A stretch of 64,000 bases of DNA, from NCBI GenBank assembly GCA_029213065.1, contig JARGPH010000002.1, positions 275,161 to 339,160 on the forward strand, in the 5' to 3' direction. Positions within the stretch are counted from its first letter, which is position 1. Each line of letters opens with the position of its first letter. The position numbers and the translations under genes were made by a program. This DNA comes from Verrucomicrobiales bacterium. Its GTDB lineage: Bacteria > Verrucomicrobiota > Verrucomicrobiia > Verrucomicrobiales > DEV007. Shown in pieces: positions 8,052 to 12,865 of this stretch. Below the pieces are notes generated by a model. The model ran no database searches, had not been told where the DNA came from, and worked only from the letters and a program-made list of their open reading frames with translations.

Positions 8052-9869
8052 TCAGTCTTTTGCAGGAGTCGGCCCAGCAGTGAGCCAGACTCCCTGTCTC
8101 CCGGATTCAGAATCGAGCTCCGGTGCGGTTGAGATGTCCGAGGTGCGATACTCGAACAGGCGAAGCTGATCCAGTTCGGACTCGATTCGGTCAAAGGCGA
8201 CTTCAGTACCGTTTCGTGAACCTTTTCCGGATACGGGCGAGGCAGTGATGATGTATCGGGGGGCGCGCCGCTCGGTGGCTCGATGCAGTGCCTCGAACTG
8301 GTCAATGAGTTTGTAGAGCCGGACGCGATCTCCTTTGCCCTTCGACGACACCTTTGCCGTGCCCGGCTCAAACTCGATAGTGGTGGCGTCGATCTCGCGC
8401 TTCAGATCGAGCATTCTTTGATCGGTATCGTCATTCAAGCCTGAGAAATCGACAGCGCGGCCGGAGAATATTCTACCGTCCCTGGCCATTTCGTGAATGA
8501 GTTGCCGCTGCTGATGGGTCACGGTCCCCGAAATTTTCCATCCCCCCTCATCGTGCCGGACATCGATCCTCTCTCTTGCGGGATCGAAACGTTCGTAAAA
8601 GAGTTCCTTCGTGAGGTGATCAATCAGCTCGAAAGCGGAGTTCATCGATGCGCGCTGTTCGCCGTAGGAGGCCTCAACGGTTTCGGCGAGATCGAGGTGC
8701 TCCCGGCGCGTCGCGAGCGAGTTGATCTCCTCCCTCAAATCATATTCCCGCAGTGCGACGATCGCGGGATTCGCTGAATGATAGGGCGTTGACTCAAACG
8801 CGATCTTCGTGACCGTCTCTCCCTTCTCCGCGAGAATCTCCGCAGCATCCCGAGCGAGCGGATCCTGAAGTAAAGTGAGGGATTTCGAGTTGAAAAGTGA
8901 ACGTTCCTCCTGAATGACTTCGATCCCGGGAGTTGCCTTGAGGTGATCGAGACTTCGTTGCCAGGTGAATTCACTATGCAGATTGAAGACGATGAAACCC
9001 AGGGAGGCGATTGCCAGGGTTCCTGCGGCGAAGCGTGAGAGCCACTTACTCTTCTTATCGGAGTCAGGTGAGCGATTCCCGAGGAGAAGCGTTTCGAGCG
9101 TGGGCGCGGATGAGGCGTCTCTCCCTTCCCCATCCGGACCGCATTCCGGTGATGTCTCAGAGGCCGATTCGCCGGCTTCGATCACTTCCCGCATCTTCCT
9201 GCGAAACTGTTTTGGTGCTGTTCCCGATCCCAGTGCGGCTAGAATCGTCTTCTGCCCTGTTTCCACGGAAATAGGCTGCTCATCGAAGAAGAGTTGTCCC
9301 GGCTCTGCCGGTCTCTTCTCCAACCCATCGAGCGATTCCCTCTCGAGTGAGGTTCTGACATGTTCCTGAATCGCACTGAGCATCCCGGCGCTGATATCGG
9401 TATTGAGAGGCTTGTCGGTGAGCCAGGCGACCTGCTGCAACAAATTTGCACTCTCCGCGTCAATGAGCAGAATCTGGTCTGCCTCATATTTGGCAGTCTT
9501 CCCTGCCCCGCCTTTTCCAAAGATCCGGCTGGTGATTCTATTTCGAAACAGTTCCCTGAAATAGAGTCTGATCGCGGGACCGATTACAGGATAGAGCGCT
9601 GAAGAGAGTTCCTGCTGGTCTTTTTCGGCACTCTGTTTGACCGCTTCGAGAAGCGGTTGCTGCAATGAGGCAATCAGTTCCTTCGAGGCGCAGGAATGAC
9701 TCTCAGCGAGAGCTTTAGGTAATTGCGCCCCGAGATAACTCGCGGCGGACACCTCATTGAGACGTCCTTCCAGATTGGACAGAGCATGATGCTCTTCCGA
9801 GAAAACAAGGTCTTTGAAACGTTGCATTTCGGAGTTCATCCGTGACTGCGAAGGCTCAGTTGTCGACAT
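8052..9869 (-). CDS. Membrane protein with cytosolic N-domain, one TM, BON-like and OmpA-like C-terminal domains
   Basis: The protein has 605 residues and no signal peptide. A cytosolic N-terminal region comes first (about 15-230; FKDLVFSEE at 18-26, ALYPVIGPAI at 91-100, ILLIDAESANLLQQV near 133-147, MLSAIQEHV near 163-171). A variable acidic linker leads to one membrane helix at about 278-297. Outside the membrane there is a BON-like segment (PGIEVIQEE, then LTLLQDPLARD). The C-terminal region is OmpA-like (about 470-590; IEFEPGTAKVSS), which could bind peptidoglycan although the usual binding residues are not clear. From memory the arrangement resembles an uncharacterised OmpA-family protein found in diverse Gram-negatives and encoded beside a coiled-coil gene, as here. 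Residues 119-125 spell KGGAGKT, a match to a ParA-type deviant Walker A. The coiled-coil partner lies 21 bp upstream. Confidence 0.72.
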   Translation of the reverse strand: MSTTEPSQSRMNSEMQRFKDLVFSEEHHALSNLEGRLNEVSAASYLGAQLPKALAESHSCASKELIASLQQPLLEAVKQSAEKDQQELSSALYPVIGPAIRLYFRELFRNRITSRIFGKGGAGKTAKYEADQILLIDAESANLLQQVAWLTDKPLNTDISAGMLSAIQEHVRTSLERESLDGLEKRPAEPGQLFFDEQPISVETGQKTILAALGSGTAPKQFRRKMREVIEAGESASETSPECGPDGEGRDASSAPTLETLLLGNRSPDSDKKSKWLSRFAAGTLAIASLGFIVFNLHSEFTWQRSLDHLKATPGIEVIQEERSLFNSKSLTLLQDPLARDAAEILAEKGETVTKIAFESTPYHSANPAIVALREYDLREEINSLATRREHLDLAETVEASYGEQRASMNSAFELIDHLTKELFYERFDPARERIDVRHDEGGWKISGTVTHQQRQLIHEMARDGRIFSGRAVDFSGLNDDTDQRMLDLKREIDATTIEFEPGTAKVSSKGKGDRVRLYKLIDQFEALHRATERRAPRYIITASPVSGKGSRNGTEVAFDRIESELDQLRLFEYRTSDISTAPELDSESGRQGVWLTAGPTPAKD

Positions 9870-9890
9870 GAGAAAACGGGAATGGATCGT

Positions 9891-10490
9891 CTAGCCGTGA
9901 AGTTCCACTGAACCATCCTGTGAGGGATTCTCATGAGGCGGGTCAATCTCACGGGTCTGGTATTTCATCCCCAGGTCGATGAGGAATCCGCTCAGGTCGC
10001 TGCGATGCGCGGCGCTGGCGGAAAGCTTTTCAATCTCGGCGTTCATCCGCTTATTGAGTTCATCCCGAATGGAATCAATCTCTGATCTCAAACAATCAAC
10101 CTGCTCTTTCAGTTCTTCACGGGATTTGCTACCCAACTGATCAATCGAGGAATGAAGCTCCCCCGCCTTCTCATCGCATTTTGAGTCGAGCGCTCCCACG
10201 ACATCGTTCATGCTGTTAAGATCGAACTTCCGGTTCTCGACCTCGCTCCGCAAGCGATCATCGAGGGACAGCATAGGAGCACTGAGAGCGCCAATCTCCG
10301 CTTTGACGAACTGATGAATCGAGTCCATGCGACCATTCATCCTCTCCTCGACTCGTTTCATCGCTTCATGAAGCGATTTCTCAAGCCTATCGAACCGATC
10401 ATCGATTTCCTGATTTCTCTTTCCGAAGAGAAGATCACGAACCGCATCCATGCTATTGGCATCCTCCCGGGACGTATTTTCAGAGTTCAT
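9891..10490 (-). CDS. Coiled-coil partner protein of the OmpA-like protein
   Basis: The protein has 199 residues and is soluble, with no signal peptide or membrane helix. Most of it (about 25-155) has heptad periodicity rich in E, K, R and L, indicating a long coiled coil. The N-terminal VRDLLFGKRNQEI (17-29) resembles FKDLVFSEEHHAL at the same place in the downstream OmpA-like protein. A conserved-looking patch, SDLSGFLIDLGMKYQ, lies at 164-178 before a disordered tail. The gene starts just after a very AT-rich stretch and runs into the OmpA-like gene, so the two are probably co-transcribed. A cytosolic scaffold or regulator of that membrane protein is an inference. I know of no established function. 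Confidence 0.65.
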   Translation of the reverse strand: MNSENTSREDANSMDAVRDLLFGKRNQEIDDRFDRLEKSLHEAMKRVEERMNGRMDSIHQFVKAEIGALSAPMLSLDDRLRSEVENRKFDLNSMNDVVGALDSKCDEKAGELHSSIDQLGSKSREELKEQVDCLRSEIDSIRDELNKRMNAEIEKLSASAAHRSDLSGFLIDLGMKYQTREIDPPHENPSQDGSVELHG

Positions 10491-10545
10491 ACTCTAAAAA
10501 TATATTATAATTTCTATAATTATCAATATTAATTATATATCAGGC
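10491..10545 (-). promoter_or_regulatory. AT-rich leader/promoter region for the coiled-coil/OmpA-like pair
   Basis: About 55 bases of nearly pure A/T lie directly upstream of the coiled-coil start codon, in otherwise GC-rich sequence. On the minus strand they contain a perfect TATAAT about 13 bases before the ATG, with a weak TTAATA 17 bases upstream of it, and short self-complementary AATTAT tracts. A promoter is likely. The exact elements are uncertain, and the TATAAT would leave a very short leader. Confidence 0.45.
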
Positions 10546-10567
10546 AGTCCGAGAGCGAAATCACTAC

Positions 10568-11344
10568 CTATTCCTCATTGTCGATCCAGTTTCGAACCAT
10601 CGCGTGGACTTTCGCAGTCCTGCCCATGTAATGATCCATTGAATAATCAATCGCAGCGAGACGGATATGTCTTTTTGATTCTTCATTATTACCCATCGCC
10701 TCATAGTAAAGGCCTAGATACAAATGCGCGTAGCAAAGGTGGTTTCTTTCCCGTTCTGAGAGGACGCCATCGCTATCCGGTGCGGCGGCGGAGAGAACAT
10801 CTTCGACCTTAGCCCGGCCCGCAAAGAGGTCGTGAACTTCTTTCATTGGCACACGGGAATCCCGCTCGATCGGGATAAGCTCTTCCTGAGCCTCCTCGAT
10901 ATTGCCCCCTGGTGCCCGCACCGCGCAGAGGAAATGCCAGACTGCGTTTTCGACATCCTGCGTATTCACCGTTTGGTGACGCTCAAACTGTTCCTTTCCT
11001 TTTTGGTATTCTTCCGCGTAATAATAGGAAAGTCCCCTTTGCCAGTGATAGGGATCCTGAGAGGGTTCCAGCTCAATCACTTCGTCAAAGTCAGCGATCG
11101 ATCCTTTGATGTCGGCCTCGAAAAAACGGGACTCTCCCCTTCGCTGTAGCGCACTCAGCCTGATCTGCCCCGCCTCTGTTTCCGCAACGGCGCCCTCGGT
11201 AAGGCGGATCGCTTCATCGTAGTTGCCGGAGCGATAAGCTGTCGCGATCGCCGCAATATCTGCCTTCTTCGCAGTCTGCGAGACGGCAGAGGTAATCGTT
11301 GAAAGCGCGAAAAGAAAAACGCCAAGGCGGAGGTGCTGAATCAT
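10568..11344 (-). CDS. Secreted TPR-repeat protein
   Basis: The protein has 258 residues. A signal peptide (about 1-23, ending TSAVSQ) precedes at least three tetratricopeptide repeats (AYRSGNYDEAIRLTEGAV near 35, GSIADFDEVIELEP, YAEEYQKGKEQFERH), then a linker and a further TPR-like pair around LCYAHLYLGLYYEAMGN. The overall pattern is NlpI-like. The start at 11344 was chosen because it opens directly on the signal peptide; an in-frame ATG five codons upstream is less likely. The gene lies upstream of the coiled-coil/OmpA-like pair on the same strand, but an AT-rich gap separates them. It is probably a periplasmic scaffold. Its function is unknown. Confidence 0.7.
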   Translation of the reverse strand: MIQHLRLGVFLFALSTITSAVSQTAKKADIAAIATAYRSGNYDEAIRLTEGAVAETEAGQIRLSALQRRGESRFFEADIKGSIADFDEVIELEPSQDPYHWQRGLSYYYAEEYQKGKEQFERHQTVNTQDVENAVWHFLCAVRAPGGNIEEAQEELIPIERDSRVPMKEVHDLFAGRAKVEDVLSAAAPDSDGVLSERERNHLCYAHLYLGLYYEAMGNNEESKRHIRLAAIDYSMDHYMGRTAKVHAMVRNWIDNEE

Positions 11345-11422
11345 GGTTTCAGCATCCACGAAAAACGGGAGCCCGTAAAGAGCTCCCGTTTCCGAAATCG
11401 TGTAAGTTGAAGTCGCTTCCGA

Positions 11423-12865
11423 CTACAGCTTGAGATCCCAACCTTCGCGATACTCGCGCTTGATGAGCTTCGCTGCTTCAGGAGTATTCGGAGAACTGAG
11501 TGTCTCCGTATCCCATTCAACCTTCTTGTTGAGGCGAACCGCGAGGTTTCCGAGGAGAACCATCTCAGTAAACGGTCCGCTGTGAGCGAACTTCGACTGG
11601 GGAAGTGACGGATCACCTGCCTTGATCGCATCGTAGAACTCCTTGTGCGGGTCTTCGTCGCGTGAACGTGGGATCGAAGGCTCGGGAAAATCAAACCCGT
11701 CGACAAGGTTGCCGGGCTTAACGACCCAGTTGTCTTTGCCGCGATTGAACCAGACTTTTCCTTTTGAACCGATGACGACACAGCCGTAGCCGCCTTTTTC
11801 ATCGCTGCCGAAGCCTTCAGTGATTTCTTCCGGAGGAAGATTGCGTTCGCGGATTTTGCCACCGTCGATTGAACTCTCGAGAGCCCATTTTTCAGGATTG
11901 AAGACCGCATCTTTGTAGCCGTCGTACCAGACATACTTGACCGGTGGTTTCTCGCCGCGCTTGGGAAACTGATATTCGATCGTCGCCCAGGTCGGAGGGG
12001 AAAGTTCGCTTTGAGCGCCACGACCGTCAGCGCTCACGGCACTCACACTCGTAGGGGCACCGAGATCAGCGGCCCAGAAGCTCATGTCCATGATGTGACA
12101 GGCCATGTCACCGAGCGCACCGGTTCCGAAGTCCCAGTAACCACGCCATTTGAAAGGAGCAATCTTCGAGCTGTATTCGCGGAAAGGTGCCGGCCCGATC
12201 CAGAGATCCCAGTTCACGTGCTTCGGTGCTTCTTCCGCTTCGGGCCACTCAGGAATTCCCTGTGGCCAGATCGGACGGTTCGTCCAGGCGTGCACTTCCT
12301 GGACATCACCGATCAAACCGGCACGAATGAGCTCCACCATGCGGCGCATGTGGTTCTCGGAGTGCGCCTGATTACCCATCTGAGTGACGACTCCGGTTTT
12401 CTCTGCGAGCTCCGTGAGCATCCGGGCTTCCCAAATGCCGTGTGTGAGTGGCTTCTGACAGTAGACCGCGCAGTCCTTTTTCATCGCGGCAACAGCAGCG
12501 TGTGCGTGAACGTGGTCAGGAGTGGAAATCGTGACCGCGTCGATCTTGTCGCCCTCGGCTTCGATCATCTCGCGCCAGTCTTCGAAAAACTTCGCATCGG
12601 GAAAGTCACCGCGGGTCTTCGTCCATCCGCCACCCATGTTCGGGTATTTGTCAGTGTTAACAATGTCACAAAGGTGTGTTACCTGGAATCCGGCACCGGC
12701 CGAATTGGCGATATCACTGGCGCCTTTTCCGGAGGTTCCGATTCCGGCGAGAGTGATCTTGTCGTTCGCGCCGAATACACGGCTCGGGACGACTTGGAAA
12801 TTGAAAGCAGCAGCTGCGGCAGCGGCCCCTTTTACGAATGTTCTGCGGGTAGGTGATTTTTCCAT
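11423..12865 (-). CDS. Tat-exported Gfo/Idh/MocA family oxidoreductase
   Basis: The protein has 480 residues and begins with a twin-arginine signal (SPTRRTFVKG at 4-13, then an alanine run), so it is exported already folded. A Rossmann fold follows, with the dinucleotide-binding turn AGIGTSGKG at about 40-48. The family EKP motif appears as YCQKPL. Later come FRWRG-type substrate-domain residues and a C-terminal alpha/beta domain. Family members are NAD(P)-dependent sugar, inositol or glycoside-oxidising enzymes with a tightly bound cofactor. Exported versions are common in PVC bacteria. The start at 12865 was chosen over the longer frame (to 12922) because it places the RR motif at the N-terminus. 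The neighbours are unrelated, so no pathway can be assigned. Confidence 0.88.
   Translation of the reverse strand: MEKSPTRRTFVKGAAAAAAAFNFQVVPSRVFGANDKITLAGIGTSGKGASDIANSAGAGFQVTHLCDIVNTDKYPNMGGGWTKTRGDFPDAKFFEDWREMIEAEGDKIDAVTISTPDHVHAHAAVAAMKKDCAVYCQKPLTHGIWEARMLTELAEKTGVVTQMGNQAHSENHMRRMVELIRAGLIGDVQEVHAWTNRPIWPQGIPEWPEAEEAPKHVNWDLWIGPAPFREYSSKIAPFKWRGYWDFGTGALGDMACHIMDMSFWAADLGAPTSVSAVSADGRGAQSELSPPTWATIEYQFPKRGEKPPVKYVWYDGYKDAVFNPEKWALESSIDGGKIRERNLPPEEITEGFGSDEKGGYGCVVIGSKGKVWFNRGKDNWVVKPGNLVDGFDFPEPSIPRSRDEDPHKEFYDAIKAGDPSLPQSKFAHSGPFTEMVLLGNLAVRLNKKVEWDTETLSSPNTPEAAKLIKREYREGWDLKL

Follow-up and report, generated by a model that had tools for sequence, protein, structure and literature searches.

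Longin domains are a type of module that handles Rab switches in human cells, and Fuzzy-Inturned is an exchange factor. The relevant part of PMC3521125 describes longin and roadblock domains as related by circular permutation, and longins as eukaryotic. Asgard small GTPases, roadblocks and longins are treated in PMC10933270 (cited here in part), and a table of PMC4917890, likewise cited in part, gives "Longin/Roadblock" as present in bacteria with the two not separated. In bacteria, the neighbourhood of the Group 1 Rup small GTPases was described in 2014 by genome analysis (PMC4316618). According to the passages of that paper drawn on here, Group 1 Rup lacks the Gln of its G3 motif, and its partner is an output protein with a conserved Gln that might act as a GAP residue. 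By the same passages, these GTPases are very similar to the eukaryotic Rab/Ran/Ras/Rho group, their GAP was not identified in 2014, and the Rup family and the MglA family are distinct.

We analysed a pair of genes in the window (the whole stretch of DNA under study, 64,000 nucleotides), which encode a coiled-coil protein and a membrane protein on the minus strand, their ORFs separated by 21 bp (Table 1). As in the Group 1 Rup neighbourhood, going by the portion of PMC4316618 that sets it out, a gene for a coiled-coil protein stands beside a gene that combines a conserved domain, a membrane helix and an OmpA domain. Judged by sequence, the pair and its family are the membrane and coiled-coil parts of that neighbourhood. 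The window coil matched an HMM of the coil family built without it (E 4e-33) and has 37% identity with the coil of genome G008. Unlike the described neighbourhood, the window is without the GTPase and the output gene: no Rup lies beside the pair, and the adjoining ORFs, the only ones examined for an output kinase or cyclase gene, encode a ceramidase-like and a TPR protein instead. The TPR protein (window 10568-11359), encoded on the strand of the coil and 77 bp upstream of it, is similar to the lipoprotein NlpI model.

Table 1. Features of the gene pair; positions are those of the window and residues those of the respective protein.
Feature	Position	Strand	Basis
Coiled-coil protein, 199 aa, first gene of the pair	9891..10490	-	ORF intact; coil-family HMM match
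N-terminal motif of coil protein, residues 14-40 (MDAVRDLLFG...)	10371..10451	-	Aligned coils; register test
Conserved C-terminal end of coil protein, residues 162-177	9960..10007	-	Family alignment, by eye, no separate score
Membrane protein, 605 aa	8052..9869	-	ORF intact; 57-member family alignment; model
N-terminal motif of membrane protein, residues 15-37	9759..9827	-	Family alignment; register test
Conserved ALYPVIGPAIR segment, residues 91-101	9567..9599	-	Membrane-protein family alignment
Longin-like domain (predicted), residues 128-267	9069..9488	-	VIA Z 11.3 to Sec22b longin domain
Transmembrane segment, residues 277-297	8979..9041	-	Hydropathy maximum 1.72 at 277
Periplasmic alpha/beta region, residues 316-480, earlier called "BON-like"	8430..8924	-	Model
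OmpA/Pal-like domain without the usual Asp, residues 485-600	8070..8417	-	VIA Z 11.6 to 5wtp

The N-terminal alignment of the membrane protein has 405 relatives in genome contigs, and our analysis rests on 80 of these, from Verrucomicrobia, Proteobacteria, Acidobacteria, Cyanobacteria, Bacteroidetes and other phyla. Operons were counted at 75 loci with an intact anchor ORF among the relatives listed. Left out were the duplicates L033, L041 and L051 (of L026, L025 and L024), L114-L124 and, for want of an intact anchor ORF, L040, L044, L050, L067 and L081. Loci with at least 700 bp on the side in question were testable (67 upstream, 70 downstream). The sequence-only reading had proposed a conserved pair, and this neighbourhood survey supports it: 64 of the 67 testable loci among the relatives listed, across several phyla, have the coil immediately upstream of the membrane gene. 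Of the 70 loci testable downstream, 55 have a Rup-type GTPase on that side in the same orientation and 64 have one anywhere in the locus, none being found in the fetched stretch of the other 6; these counts too are among the relatives listed, and the operon HMMs were built from many of the loci they were scored on. In 44 loci, the same-strand gene that follows the GTPase falls into one cluster, whose products we read as PAS/kinase proteins.

Among the Rup sequences, 31 of 32 lack the G3 Gln, and 39 of 44 output-protein N-termini share one conserved Gln, which we take to be the Gln of PMC4316618. The complete operons of the family share both traits, a GTPase without the G3 Gln and an output protein with a Gln, with Group 1 Rup as portrayed in the cited passages. 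All 32 Rup sequences matched Pfam Ras, and the closest PDB relative of the Rup profile was Rab23 (E 6.1e-40), then SEC4, Rab35, Rab1 and Rab7. The pair had also been called undescribed in function, which stands, but its neighbourhood was already on record as Group 1 Rup (PMC4316618, cited passages).

The conserved domain of the membrane protein is assigned neither fold nor function in those passages of PMC4316618; here a longin fold is predicted. Modelled over its N-terminal 274 residues (pLDDT 79.8, pTM 0.55), the G008 homologue has, at residues 142-266, the order strand-strand-helix-strand-strand-strand-helix-helix. Its best VIA-align match was the Sec22b longin (Z 13.7, 125 aligned, 2.8 A), ahead of Fuzzy-Inturned with Rab23 (13.0), CPLANE (12.9), Vamp7 (12.8) and COPI (12.7), with Ykt6 (12.2), TRAPP (11.6), Mon1-Ccz1 with Ypt7 (11.4) and a Lokiarchaeal longin (11.3) lower. 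By their titles, the best 50 rows all belong to the longin/roadblock superfamily. The window model also aligned with the Sec22b longin domain (Z 11.3, 121 aligned, 3.1 A), and by model the longin fold including its C-terminal helix is present in both proteins. Foldseek returned the same protein kinds, but of its 883 matches only 2 reached an E of 0.001 or lower. Thus, the GTPase of the operon is closest to Rab23, and one of the closest fold matches of the domain is a protein whose structure was solved together with Rab23.

No longin match by sequence exceeded the Pfam cut-off: the window membrane protein matched 0 Pfam/NCBIfam families at E up to 1, and matches among the 57 family members stayed below it (Fuz_longin_1 in 2 of 57, best E 0.0011; Robl_LC7 in 1 of 57, E 0.0057). 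Two of these matches fall at the expected place, Fuz_longin_1 at residues 170-269 of L083 and Robl_LC7 at residues 154-225 of L108; the per-member scans covered 50 of the 57 members, with the second Fuz_longin_1 member outside the located matches. Unrelated Pfam families reach E-values similar to the Fuz_longin_1 match in the same scan, so the Fuz_longin_1 and Robl_LC7 matches add little to the case. A PDB search with the domain profile gave 2 chance hits and no relative by sequence. On the structural models, we predict that this domain, formerly of no assigned function, is a longin domain. The model-based assignment is new here: none for the Rup neighbourhood appeared in the open-access literature searched by title and beginning of abstract, and a prior description is possible.

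A roadblock, our first guess for the domain, is kept as a rival. Under this alternative, the cytosolic domain would be an MglB-like roadblock GAP that switches Rup off in complete operons. Such a role would suit the absence of the G3 Gln in Group 1 Rup, which leaves it in need of a GAP (PMC4316618, cited passages), the weak Robl_LC7 match of one member, and the presence of MglB and roadblock proteins among the Foldseek matches. However, MglB stands at rank 50 of the Foldseek list with an alignment of only 86 columns, the leading longin rows of VIA cover the C-terminal helix, and the Gln of the output protein might itself serve as the GAP residue, as the same passages propose. Fold alone cannot fix GAP or GEF, and we regard the GAP role as unlikely.

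The remaining parts of the window membrane protein were assessed in its model (mean pLDDT 80.0, pTM 0.39), in which the N-terminus is helical, and in the family alignment. Within the ALYPVIGPAIR segment, P94, P98, A99 and R101 are invariant across the 57 members. The longin-proximal helices that follow are shortened in the window protein, a gap unique among the alignment rows shown, and the segment bearing a conserved N, S and W-R is missing. The single membrane span of the sequence-only reading agrees with one hydrophobic segment at about 277-297, held within a long helix (271-312) of the model, and its OmpA-like part is likewise borne out by a modelled C-terminal OmpA/Pal fold. Of the region it called BON-like, the model retains an alpha/beta architecture; no Pfam BON match was obtained in the 57 members, and the fold search barely covered the region. 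OmpA was the sole Pfam family at E up to 0.001 in a scan of the 57 members (40 of 57). A shorter paralogue with the membrane and periplasmic part only (query residues about 276-498 or 281-575) is present in 15 of 36 relatives searched, the window's own genome included (L002 on contig C11; L005-L018). In L025 (G005, contig C4), a second membrane-gene copy, at 10496-12376, is split into two ORFs, and the Beggiatoa-type loci L068, L069 and L104 have two membrane-gene copies each, of up to 1077 aa.

We searched the window genome (96.21% complete) for Rup by protein and by profile and found none. Among the other genomes, all 19 that carry a canonical-type copy also have a Rup (E below 1e-36), in some cases on a different contig (G005, G008, G285, G199, G208, G352, G417, G418, G460, G464, G476, G490, G506, G535, G542, G552, G564, G449 and G547); the longin frame is only 285 aa in G464 and 298 aa in G552. 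A window-type pair, with no detectable Rup in its genome and a shortened longin region, is newly seen here. On another contig of the window genome (C59, L172), an MglA-like ORF (TVPGQ) lies between two roadblock-like ORFs.

GTPase-free pairs proved common in family f2, which belongs to the same order as the window genome, and this too is newly seen here. The profile of the f2 form matched 81 of 386 genomes of the order, 66 of them in f2, where 65 are of the GTPase-free type and 1 is canonical (G547); the 65 were counted by profile match, with G541, G709 and G630 as fragments, and G421, which has weak matches to both, was left unclassified. A profile search found no Rup at E below 1e-20 in the 65 GTPase-free genomes; weak matches in 11 of them (best 8.2e-15) all lay in open frames of 601-1139 aa. 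The ten f2 longin proteins examined have neither a membrane segment (maximum hydropathy 1.57) nor the N-terminal motif, which the f2 coils retain. Of 30 f2 loci, 28 have the coil directly upstream, 1 has it fused and 1 ends there, so that the coil is present in 29 of 29 testable loci; 9 of the 30 are genomes already counted in the first f2 set, and many of these loci also went into the HMMs. The fusion is one ORF in genome G296 (L147, identical to L135 and L120). Coil and longin therefore persist together without GTPase, anchor or second motif. Fusion and adjacency suggest that the two proteins interact, and the GTPase-free pairs suggest that they form a unit in their own right.

Two further ideas about these loci were dropped. 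Loss of the W-R segment is not tied to loss of the GTPase, as f2 longins from GTPase-free pairs still have W-R together with the residues that follow. A BLAST cluster joining coil and membrane ORFs was not counted as evidence of shared ancestry because the fused gene (L120) was in the set and can link both. Among 10 f2 loci, 8 have a large protein of a kinase-like cluster in the vicinity of the pair and 6 have a sigma-factor-like ORF there (L128, L129, L132-L137); one such kinase-like neighbour scanned as Pkinase with FGE-sulfatase and PEGA, and one sigma-factor-like neighbour as Sigma70_r2.

The f2 pairs bear on a second alternative, by which the window pair would be a decaying remnant with its function gone. 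The window copy is a single example and may be decaying: its genome yielded no Rup, its longin region is shortened, and the long form occurs in only 2 other same-genus genomes searched (G005 and G008). Yet both window ORFs are intact, and GTPase-free pairs of coil and longin are kept in 65 f2 genomes; we think it improbable that function has been lost.

The sequence-only reading further held that the two proteins share an N-terminal motif. We compared coil-family and membrane-family profiles, with the window rows left out, across 101,360 ungapped 28-column registers. The best register joined N-terminus to N-terminus (score 21.45), a score reached by 0 of 100 column shuffles (maximum 20.0, mean 14.5), with a reversed-profile control close behind at 19.4. 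A short-motif HMM test gave no significance, with matches at E up to 10 in 8 of 57 membrane proteins, the window one not among them; the controls gave 1 match in 57 reversed sequences, none in 57 shuffled ones and 14 in 993 other ORFs (13 of the 14 weak). The similarity is thus above chance and lies in the best register, but it is modest, its reversed control is close, and it falls short of significance as a short-motif HMM. As the interface the motif is not supported: the ten f2 longins examined lack it despite their pairing or fusion with the coil, so it is unlikely to be essential for the contact.

In OmpA domains, an Asp and an Arg act in peptidoglycan binding. None of the 10 Verrucomicrobial members has the Asp, which 43 of the 47 others do have, and the Arg is kept in 56 of 57; the window domain likewise lacks the Asp and keeps the Arg. 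Because all ten Verrucomicrobial copies lack the usual Asp, their binding of peptidoglycan is doubtful, which weakens the link to the cell wall drawn earlier. A third alternative builds on that link: by way of the shared motif, the pair would anchor a cytosolic scaffold to the cell wall. One membrane segment, an OmpA fold and the modest motif similarity speak for it; the missing Asp, the f2 longins that remain paired without motif and membrane segment, and an operon context of signalling speak against it, and we give it little credence.

We moderately favour another reading, which takes the window pair as the GTPase-free, membrane-anchored scaffold half of a Group 1 Rup operon, with the longin domain as the Rup platform in complete operons. 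There, the membrane protein would sit in the inner membrane, its cytosolic longin domain would act as a docking and nucleotide-exchange platform for the Rab-like Rup, and the coiled-coil protein would bind the same cytosolic part. The Rup switch would in turn control the product of the following gene, a histidine kinase or another output protein; binding, exchange activity and the direction of signalling are what we infer for this scheme. In the window, GTPase and output genes are missing beside the pair, the GTPase also from the rest of the genome searched, and coil and longin protein would stay at the membrane as a GTPase-free complex comparable to the f2 pair. That the pair works with another small GTPase of its own genome, such as the MglA-like one, is the least probable alternative, since that ORF, although present with its TVPGQ motif, has its own roadblock neighbours, sits on another contig and belongs to a family distinct from Rup (PMC4316618, cited passages).

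The longin domain is a concrete candidate regulator for Group 1 Rup, and its place in the Rup operon bears on the origin of the eukaryotic Rab-longin partnership. Among bacterial systems, the actinobacterial conservon is alike in being a four-gene set with a small GTPase, a kinase and a roadblock protein; it differs in having a roadblock instead of a longin-type domain and an MglA-family GTPase, and the OmpA protein is unmentioned in the passages of PMC4316618 cited for it. MglA/MglB similarly joins a small GTPase to a protein of the roadblock/longin superfamily, MglB being among the Foldseek matches. The elements of MglB, a roadblock, are arranged in a different order, and MglA has a different G3 motif (PMC4316618, cited passages). 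With Fuzzy-Inturned (with Rab23), Mon1-Ccz1 (with Ypt7) and TRAPP, the family shares the predicted longin fold and, in its operons, a Rab-like GTPase. Unlike these longin Rab regulators, it is bacterial, is joined to a membrane segment and an OmpA domain, has no significant sequence relation to them, and its exchange activity is putative. Tentatively, Rab23-like Rup and the membrane-anchored longin exchange platform could form a bacterial Rab-longin switch, with the window and f2 pairs as its GTPase-free second stage. If so, the partnership of Rab and longin could be older than eukaryotes, or it could have passed between them and bacteria, and the switch would parallel Fuzzy-Inturned for Rab23 and Mon1-Ccz1 for Rab7.
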